Origin: Sulfurovum indicum
GTDB lineage: Bacteria; Campylobacterota; Campylobacteria; Campylobacterales; Sulfurovaceae
Length of the DNA stretch: 64,000 nucleotides
NCBI RefSeq assembly: GCF_014931715.1
Contig: NZ_CP063164.1
Span: 806,001-870,000, forward strand
Reading direction: 5' to 3'
Shown here: in pieces, positions 51,664-53,516 of the stretch
Position numbering within the stretch: the first letter of the stretch is position 1
Layout of the letters: each line of letters begins with the position of its first letter
The notes under the pieces: generated by a model
Seen by the model: only the letters and a program-made list of their open reading frames with translations
Databases searched by the model: none
What the model was told of the DNA's origin: nothing
Translations under genes and position numbers: made by a program

Positions 51664-52365
51664 CTAAATATTGTCGAACCACAGTTTCAGGAAGGTACTT
51701 CGGTCATACTGCCTGGCACCAAGCTGGAATTTGTAGGGCATATAGCTCTGTCCCAGGTTCCAGAAGGCAAAATCATTTTCCTGAAGGTATCTGGCAAGCA
51801 GTACCAGTTGGGCCGTACCGTAGTTTCTGTAGGCCTTTTCTCTACTGCTGAATCCGCTGAGGCTCGTATAGGTATTGCCGATGATGTAGCCTATCTCTCC
51901 GGCAACAGTATCACCATTCTCTTCAATGCACGCAGTAATGATCTGAAAGTCCTCTTTCATCTTTTGTGTTGCCTGGAGTATCTTCAAATAGTTCGGTGTA
52001 AGCCAGCTTTGTCGGTGGTATGTCTGTATCTTTTGTGCAACTGCGGTAATATTGTCTGTCGAAACTGTAAGTGAAAGGTTTTTCTTTGAGAGCAGTCTTC
52101 GAACCTTTCTACTGATATGCAGCTCTTCAAAATGGAGCAGCGCGTAAGAGAACTGGATCTCGGGAAGCAGCAGTTCTCTGCCTTGATATATGTCGGTTAC
52201 TGCAATGAAGCCTGCTTTGGCCTGTGCAATATAGAATTCCGGAGAGAAGTCGTCACTCCAGTAATAGTTCTTTTGCATATCCGGATAGATCTTCTTTCTG
52301 AGTATGAAAGGAGAGGTTACATCTTCATAGCGAAGCGGATAGATGCCAAGCTGAATCTCACTCAT
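51664..52365 (-). CDS. Divergent Leu/Phe-tRNA-protein transferase (Aat)-like protein
   Basis: 233 residues. It aligns with Aat along most of its length: SDDFSPEFYIAQAKAGFIAV (for the DLSP..GIFPW start), EELHISRKVRRLL (for ESLHISRSMKR), and VAGEIGYIIGNTYTSLSGFS with FWNLGQSYMPYKFQLGA (for LVGGMYGV..GESMFS and IDCQ..ASLGA). The Aat IDCQ motif is altered: the glutamine is kept but the catalytic aspartate is not. Aat moves Leu or Phe to protein N-termini for the ClpS/ClpAP N-degron route. Changed residues suggest a different transferase or substrate. It is five bases after the gene at 52371. Confidence 0.55.
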   Translation of the reverse strand: MSEIQLGIYPLRYEDVTSPFILRKKIYPDMQKNYYWSDDFSPEFYIAQAKAGFIAVTDIYQGRELLLPEIQFSYALLHFEELHISRKVRRLLSKKNLSLTVSTDNITAVAQKIQTYHRQSWLTPNYLKILQATQKMKEDFQIITACIEENGDTVAGEIGYIIGNTYTSLSGFSSREKAYRNYGTAQLVLLARYLQENDFAFWNLGQSYMPYKFQLGARQYDRSTFLKLWFDNI

Positions 52366-52370
52366 GATAT

Positions 52371-52691
52371 CTATTGGTCTTCCATAATGACATCGATACT
52401 CTTCTTCGGAGTGAAATCCTGTCTCCTGTACCAGGAGGTTCTCTCTATTTTCGGAAAGGCTGCTTTCATAATATCGAGTGCAGAGGAGTCCCAGTTATGT
52501 GCATTGGGAGCAATGGTCCAGCCAAGCTCTTTGAGTACATAGGAGAAGATCTGACTGATAATCTTTTCACTCTTTTCAAGTGCTTCGGTATCTTCTGTTT
52601 TTTGTGCATCAAGCATACTTTGTACAAGCTGTTTGCGCACCTCTCTGCTGTAGTGTGATCGCAAAAGATCTATGATCTCTTTTTTTGGCAT
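52371..52691 (-). CDS. Small uncharacterised protein paired with Aat-like gene
   Basis: 106 residues from ATG 52691, supported by AAGAAGGG seven bases before it. The frame stays open upstream to 53027 only because it crosses the MITE-like element at 52721-52993, so the longer version is unlikely. The protein is helical and charged (MPKKEIIDLLRSHYSREVRK, TEALEKSEKIISQIFSYVL) with a tryptophan-containing middle (LGWTIAPNAHNWDSSALDIM). No family recognised. It probably forms an operon with the Aat-like gene. Confidence 0.6.
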   Translation of the reverse strand: MPKKEIIDLLRSHYSREVRKQLVQSMLDAQKTEDTEALEKSEKIISQIFSYVLKELGWTIAPNAHNWDSSALDIMKAAFPKIERTSWYRRQDFTPKKSIDVIMEDQ

Positions 52692-52720
52692 ACGAACCCT
52701 TCTTTGAACTTGTTTTTTCT

Positions 52721-52993
52721 TATTACCGCACCAACTAAATACCTCAAACTTTGAGAGAACGAGACGAGGCAAGATGTGCGTGAAAAAATCTGAAGGACTA
52801 CCCGTAGGTAATTCAAAGATTTTTTTGCGTGCAGATTGTCTCGTCTCGTTCTCCCCGAAGGGTGCAGCACTTTCGCCCACATACGGCGTTAGATTTTCTT
52901 GAATTAGCCTCCGGCTAGTCCTGCGAAAATCTGCCTTGTCTGTGAACAAAATTGCAGCATCAAAGATTGAGGTATTTAATTGGTACGGTAATA
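52721..52993. mobile_element. MITE-like element with 34-bp terminal inverted repeats
   Basis: The left end 52721-52754 and the right end 52960-52993 are inverted repeats of 34 bases with three mismatches. Inside, 52755-52772 pairs with 52836-52853 over 18 bases with one mismatch (core GAGAACGAGACGA), enclosing the smaller hairpin CTAC-CC-GTAG. A second internal hairpin spans 52891-52932 (AGATTTTC with GAAAATCT, enclosing TTAGCC-TCC-GGCTAG). No transposase gene is present. The element sits directly upstream of the 52371 gene and 58 bases before rlmH. Confidence 0.75.
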
Positions 52994-53054
52994 TTATTGT
53001 AACAAAAATAGTGTTAACACGGTACAATATCGAAAATTTTAAAGGTGTTTAATT

Positions 53055-53516
53055 ATGAAGATCAATGTCATCATTATAGACAAAAAGGGAAAGGACCAGC
53101 TCTATACTCCACTGATCGAACACTATAAAAAGATCGCTAAACCTTTTGCCAAAGTAGAAGTGATAGAGTTGTTTGACAAAGAGATCGCCAAAGCACATGA
53201 TATTTCACCCGAAGCAGCAAAAAAATCTTACACAAAAGCATTTGAAAAATATTTAAGTAACGGAATAAATATTGCTTTAGACCCCTCATCAAAAGAGGTA
53301 GACAGCTTCGATTTTGCAAATTTGCTTAAGGATAGCACAACTGTAAACTTCTACATTGGCGGTGCTTACGGCTTTGAGAAGGATTTTTTAACCAAATGTA
53401 ATAAAGCCGTATCATTTGGTAAAATAACGCTTTCACATAAACTGGTGAAACTTGTTTTGCTTGAACAGATCTTTAGAGGTTTGAGTATTAACAACAATCA
53501 CCCATACCACAAATAG
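53055..53516 (+). CDS. rlmH: 23S rRNA (pseudouridine-1915-N3)-methyltransferase
   Basis: 153 residues with the RlmH SPOUT pattern: the C-terminal FYIGGAYGFEKDFLTKCNKA knot region and SFGKITLSHKLVKLVLLEQIFRG, ending in NNNHPYHK. It methylates pseudouridine 1915 of helix 69 in 70S ribosomes. The MITE-like element ends 61 bases upstream, so it may affect the promoter. Confidence 0.95.
   Translation: MKINVIIIDKKGKDQLYTPLIEHYKKIAKPFAKVEVIELFDKEIAKAHDISPEAAKKSYTKAFEKYLSNGINIALDPSSKEVDSFDFANLLKDSTTVNFYIGGAYGFEKDFLTKCNKAVSFGKITLSHKLVKLVLLEQIFRGLSINNNHPYHK

Follow-up and report, generated by a model that had tools for sequence, protein, structure and literature searches.

A gene-free 273-bp element of Sulfurovum indicum with IS630-type ends and a conserved folded core also found within other insertion-sequence ends

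In the window analyzed here, the whole stretch of 64,000 nucleotides from Sulfurovum indicum, a 273-bp sequence with inverted repeats at both ends separates two divergent genes, which raises the question of whether it is an ordinary MITE or carries an interior with a history of its own. A first-pass annotation had described 34-bp terminal repeats with three mismatches, two internal hairpins, and no gene. This anatomy was borne out: the terminal repeats are 91% complementary over 34 nt, folds of both strands gave the two hairpins, and the 273 bp are crossed by fortuitous open frames only. The nested 18-bp inverted repeat that had also been reported is present as hairpin 1; its arms, however, are longer (37 nt, 81% complementary). 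As a single strand, the element folded with −128.7 (+ strand) or −132.8 (− strand) kcal/mol, energies reached by none of 200 dinucleotide shuffles on either strand (z of −13.4 and −13.2, respectively). Its parts are as follows:

52721 to 52754, + strand: left terminal inverted repeat, by repeat comparison
52721-52722: outermost left TA, the presumed target dinucleotide, from the TA flank counts in 34 TA-type elements
52755 to 52853, + strand: arm 1 (hairpin 1), with the conserved motif on the + strand
52792 to 52816, + strand: conserved apical module of arm 1 (GAAGGACT-stem-loop-AATTCAA), from alignment A2
52854 to 52862, no strand: central mini-hairpin CCC-GAA-GGG, the center of dyad symmetry, from the alignment and folds
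52863 to 52959, − strand: arm 2 (hairpin 2), with the conserved motif on the − strand
52899 to 52924, − strand: conserved apical module of arm 2 (GCAGGACT-stem-loop-AATTCAA, read on the minus strand), from alignment A3
52960 to 52993, + strand: right terminal inverted repeat, by repeat comparison; its outermost TA is at 52992-52993

On one side, the element ends 61 bp upstream of rlmH, a SPOUT methyltransferase gene at 53055, the product of which scored 125.9 bits against Pfam PF02590 (cut-off, 27) and matched nine NCBIfam RlmH models, every one below its curated cut-off. On the other side, it lies 29 bp upstream of an ATG at 52691, the likely start of a frame of 106 aa that matched no Pfam family. 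The element had been said to extend the frame of this second gene, and an open frame on the minus strand, from 52371 to 53027, does cross it; as the true gene start, however, the ATG at 52691 appears more likely. In a relative (G014), the frame at the corresponding place starts at the same ATG with no element before it (by eye), so that the extension appears to be fortuitous. The same relative likewise has no element upstream of rlmH (by eye, not base by base). Another relative (G015) has a lone right-end remnant at the corresponding position upstream of rlmH (L333; by eye), suggesting an old shared insertion that decayed there. The first-pass annotation had suggested that the element could alter expression of rlmH or of the 52371 gene. 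A scan of 52600 to 53120 gave three promoter-like sites, which is not clearly above shuffled sequence (1.2 ± 1.2), and no terminator-like site. By simple open reading frame calls, none of 23 copies examined in this genome had long open frames abutting both ends, and 15 lay between tandem, 5 between convergent, and 3 between divergent frames; these copies thus look intergenic.

The first-pass annotation had made its reading depend on further copies and on an insertion sequence (IS) with related ends, and both were found. Thirteen copies with both ends are present in the genome, a single contig of 2,209,694 bp; 11 of them are 97 to 100% identical to the query over 273 bp. In two diverged copies (85% and 74% identity), one of them 317 bp long with an inserted stretch, TATTACTCCCCC replaces TATTACCGCACC at each end. 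Solo palindromes of joined ends were present at 1844674 (58 bp) and 70919 (47 bp). In a search of relatives, 21 of 60 genomes, this one counted, had a match to the element. Being short (273 bp, where MITEs have 70 to 300 bp), gene-free, bounded by 34-bp terminal inverted repeats, and dispersed in 13 complete copies, the sequence is, as a single element, a MITE. Its flanks agree with this: among 34 TA-type elements in locus orientation, the left flank had TA in 28 and lacked it in 6, and the right flank had it in 29 and lacked it in 5. In another family of the same order (G038), an IS of ∼1.38 kb (ends placed by eye) surrounds an IS630 transposase (NCBIfam IS630, 213.6 bits versus a cut-off of 100) with the ends TTATTACCGCACCAATTAAAT (IRL) and TTATTACTCCCC (IRR). 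Both occur as element ends in the S. indicum genome; a single IS630 thus has one end like each of the two types found on the elements. This was the one IS630 with matching ends seen, and thus the autonomous IS matched by the ends lies outside the element's own genome. In that genome, a search for three transposase families (PF13358, PF01609, and PF01797) gave no match to IS630 (PF13358) or DDE_Tnp_1 (PF01609), which makes present mobility of the element there doubtful; among the 60 genomes, PF13358 was matched in 10 and PF01609 in 23.

The interior consists of two hairpin arms of ∼100 nt, mutually inverted around a CCC-NNN-GGG mini-hairpin. An alignment of 24 elements showed compensatory changes in 51 of 101 predicted pairs, and one of 19 arms in 20 of 29 pairs, while the internal-loop motifs AAGGCA/TAACG and GCAGGAC/ATTCAA were nearly fixed. 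The covariation around fixed internal loops shows that the arm fold has been kept. Since the conserved motif lies on the + strand in arm 1 and on the − strand in arm 2, the two strands are equivalent: on either one, an arm in the conserved sense comes first. Read on the + strand, arm 1 had 131 G-U versus 9 A-C cells (64 versus 9 without three near-fixed positions), which supports its maintenance in a single-stranded form, in which G-U pairs are tolerated. The outer stem of arm 2, in the same reading, showed the reverse (4 G-U versus 46 A-C); as 42 of the 46 A-C cells came from two near-fixed positions, leaving 4 versus 4, strand selection is only suggested for this arm. The inner register of arm 2 (79 G-U, 27 A-C, and 91 other cells) was mis-registered and was excluded. 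No bias was seen in the apical parts (23 versus 24 and 25 versus 23), and the terminal repeats had 7 G-U and 20 A-C cells.

A covariance model (R1) built from the 19 arms matched arm 1 at 52761-52840 on the + strand (33.3 bits; E, 6.7e-6) and arm 2 at 52871-52958 on the − strand (90.8 bits; E, 1.1e-20), the latter by construction, as this copy is in the model's alignment. R1 matches were found in 51 of 149 Campylobacterales genomes and 23 of 61 genera, with up to 29 candidates scored per genome; the S. indicum genome has at least 29. Based on 166 of 180 matches, the omitted ones repeating places already covered by an overlapping locus, close matches followed each other in + then − order at 54 of 55 distinct places, 27 to 49 nt apart, and on the same strand at one (56 of 57 in + then − order before duplicate places were removed). 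Among 81 distinct elements, 60 measured 260 to 278 bp and 10, mostly with a single arm, 162 to 218 bp; some of the 11 outside these two size classes are poor end fits. As to structured RNA families, eight element-bearing loci gave no match in Rfam 15 at the gathering score, and the region 52300-53300, searched at E up to 1, gave only mir-31 (21.8 bits versus a gathering score of 51); a structured RNA of that collection was thus rejected at this score. The outer boxes of integron attC sites read RYYYAAC ... GTTRRRY. An attC site was also rejected, since the boxes here are in the wrong order, GTTAGAT lying 5′, not 3′, of the + strand stem (by eye).

The same core was found between ends of other insertion sequences. 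Among the R1 matches listed for the S. indicum genome, 16 belong to a second sequence class. All 10 of these that were fetched had GGGCACCTCTAA (GGGCACC) ends, which are IS5-family ends, and 9 of the 10 were flanked by an exact 4-bp duplication. The fetched loci together contained 43 pairs of GGGCACC ends at distances of 150 to 300 bp, a set unfiltered for the core and including at least one pair without it (L089); identical 4-bp flanks were present in 24 of the 43 (shuffled mean, 4.5; highest of 2000 shuffles, 11) and absent from 19. The stretch CCCNNNGGG between the arms also occurs in the GGGCACC elements and in those of G058 (by eye). When a set of transposase loci from the 60 genomes (L159 to L205) was scanned for three end patterns only, ends were paired around a transposase in five: the IS630 of G038 (L199), and four with IS5-family transposases over the cut-off. 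Two of the four (L162 and L164) have GGGCACC-type ends; L164 is flanked by TTAA on both sides, and the flanks of L162 do not match. The other two (L160 and L182) have TAGAACCCTCTGA ends, which match those of one core element (L119) and, with one difference, those of another (L104). R1, run with E values up to 10, matched neither the five ISs that have such ends nor any of four other transposase loci. The elements are therefore not simply deleted ISs, and their interior is not one derived from the IS that shares their ends.

Pairwise comparisons separated core and ends further. Two elements (L211 and L268) agreed in 194 of 210 core positions (92%) and in only 18 of 34 and 17 of 38 positions of their ends; one element (L257) appears by eye to be a hybrid with one end of each type. 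Conversely, L211 and L227 have ends in common, but in the alignment made only 121 of 211 positions of their cores agree; we think that the core of L227 may be in reverse orientation. Roughly a dozen further end types occur in Campylobacterales and some Gammaproteobacteria, an approximate count. Clustering of the ends took in 161 matches, for 22 of which no terminal repeat was scored (owing to truncated contigs, hybrids, or poor fits), and placed the 81 distinct elements in 16 clusters at a lenient single-linkage cut, of which at least two (L251 and L224) look mis-extended and the largest merges several visibly different ends.

A search of the GTDB genome collection for a 25-mer of the module (one base left free) gave 67 stretches, some from metagenome-assembled genomes (MAGs) titled Gammaproteobacteria and Candidatus Thiodiazotropha. 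R1 matched all eight genomes searched outside Campylobacterales, one to eight times each; these had been picked for holding the 25-mer, seven being titled Gammaproteobacteria or Thiodiazotropha and one Proteobacteria. Two Pseudoalteromonas records and one Catenovulum record matched with 49.5, 48.0, and 49.0 bits, and a Subdoligranulum (Clostridia) plasmid record had one lone arm (70.6 bits). Many of the records are MAGs, in which binning errors or contamination could inflate the taxonomic spread. No core match was found in phages, none for one exact pattern in viral contigs, and none in E. coli genomes. The lone Subdoligranulum arm (L273, 3986-4071) has no scored terminal repeats and is in sense orientation to the two minus-strand open frames between which it is placed. 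In a Thiodiazotropha MAG (L234, 2690-2720), two core elements with different ends abut and have CTAG in common; there, a second end type, GGGGGCGTTCTCAATTA, surrounds single-arm elements on both sides of a gene that we take to be NnrS-like.

We consider it likely that the sequence at 52721-52993 is a nonautonomous element in which IS630-type ends and a conserved passenger core have separate histories, the core changing vehicles over time. Judging from the anatomy and the one matching IS, an IS630 transposase acting in trans would cut at the terminal repeats and paste the element into TA, which would be duplicated. The interior would be the passenger, two inverted hairpin arms around the CCC-NNN-GGG hairpin. 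That it changed vehicles is suggested by the presence of the same core in other ends, two IS5 kinds included, and the pair with the same core in different ends, together with the hybrid, points to recombination between core-sharing elements as the probable route. As for the role of the core, our best guess is that a widely conserved host factor would bind the arm hairpin, somewhat more likely as RNA than as single-stranded DNA; the inverted pair would then make the orientation of insertion irrelevant. On balance, we also favor the broader view of a free-living structured passenger that works in either orientation, has repeatedly swapped IS ends (IS630, two IS5 types, and others), and outlives its vehicles in Campylobacterota, marine and symbiotic Gammaproteobacteria, and perhaps Clostridia.

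The first-pass reading of a MITE mobilized in trans is supported by the dispersed copies, by the TA at most ends, and by the IS630 ends found in one relative; as a whole account it falls short, because the interior is a conserved core common to other IS ends. For the same reason, an IS630 that lost its transposase gene, with a degenerate leftover as its interior and palindromes arising from end duplication, is decidedly unlikely: it accounts for the IS630-like ends, the TA flanks, and the several copies, but the interior is missing from the five ISs with matching ends, recurs within other IS ends, and covaries around fixed internal loops. Gene conversion between the arms (quasipalindrome correction) could keep complementarity without selection on the fold, and could maintain the outer terminal repeats, in which 748 of 792 cells are Watson-Crick pairs. 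It should, however, have erased a conserved A-C (columns 78/91) and a conserved U-G (columns 61/107), each present in 24 of 24 elements; such conserved unpaired and wobble positions argue against it and leave it highly improbable. That the elements are RNA hairpins with a cis-regulatory or insulating role (3′-end stabilizers or RNase III substrates), spread by IS ends and kept for a benefit to the host, is a possibility that we consider doubtful. The absence of long frames abutting both ends in all 23 copies, the G-U bias of arm 1, and the sense-strand position of the Clostridia arm between same-strand frames would fit such a role. However, any tolerated insertion is expected to be intergenic, and single-arm elements had no consistent orientation to genes (12 cases, of which 6 lay between same-strand frames, 2 sense and 4 antisense).

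It is also unlikely that the core is itself a REPIN-like mobile unit, moved by Y1/RAYT proteins and inserting into small palindromic repeats of IS ends, at their loops, so that these repeats would pass for terminal ones. The inverted hairpin pairs do resemble REPINs, solo palindromes of joined ends exist, and Y1_Tnp was more common in genomes with the core (34 of 51, versus 34 of 98 without; Fisher P = 2.6e-4), a correlation that may reflect general mobilome size. Against this stand the arm sequence, in which variation extends up to the terminal repeats and no fixed boundary of insertion is visible by eye, and the exact 4-bp duplications, which lie outside the IS ends. Moreover, 17 of the 51 core-bearing genomes had no Y1_Tnp match, and among 16 chosen Y1 loci, in which the core was sought within the stretch fetched, only one had it, 1.6 kb away (L316). 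Two Y1 loci (L089 and L319) adjoin other repeats. Y1/RAYT was rejected as the mobilizer. At L089 (5868-6914, S. indicum genome positions 1239267-1240313), a Y1/RAYT-like gene of 162 aa from its ATG is flanked by repeats of its own with GGGTAACC and GGGCAACC...CCCCTACA motifs and resembles a classical GTAG REP system separate from the element. At another locus of this genome (L315, 1118494-1121798), a Y1 transposase-like frame of 261 aa is present twice, ∼3 kb apart, and identical 300-bp stretches are repeated at the same 2,972-bp spacing.

MITEs are normally taken to be deletion derivatives of one IS. If a conserved folded core does recur in many kinds of IS ends, the interior could be the selected unit and the ends replaceable, and the core would offer a testable RNA or single-stranded-DNA motif with a putative binding partner across phyla. 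Our searches of the open-licence PMC literature gave no description of one folded core in exchangeable IS ends that we recognized, and there was no Rfam family.

REPINs and BIMEs are pairs of inverted REPs. The element resembles them in having two inverted hairpins in fixed order, but its arms have ∼100 nt and two conserved internal loops, where the hairpins of REPs have 20 to 40 nt, and it has IS-type terminal repeats with presumed target duplications and no link to Y1/RAYT in 15 of 16 loci. REP dimers within long palindromes have been described for GTAG-15 of A. variabilis and CGTC-1 of H. neapolitanus (PMC3733652), and there, too, a hairpin pair is nested in an outer palindrome. Those, however, are REPs of 20 to 40 bp, and the passages of that paper describing them connect the outer palindromes neither with IS ends nor with an exchange of ends (PMC3733652). 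IS5-derived MITEs are matched by the GGGCACC and TAGAACCCTCTGA versions, both with IS5-type ends and the former with 4-bp duplications, but the core of these versions is identical in kind to that of the IS630-type version. The RUP element of Streptococcus pneumoniae is linked to IS630. RUP has been named as a MITE (PMC3733652). With IS630-derived MITEs such as RUP, the element shares its short, gene-free form, terminal inverted repeats, TA flanks, and presumed mobilization in trans; unlike them, it has an inverted two-arm core that is also found within other IS ends.
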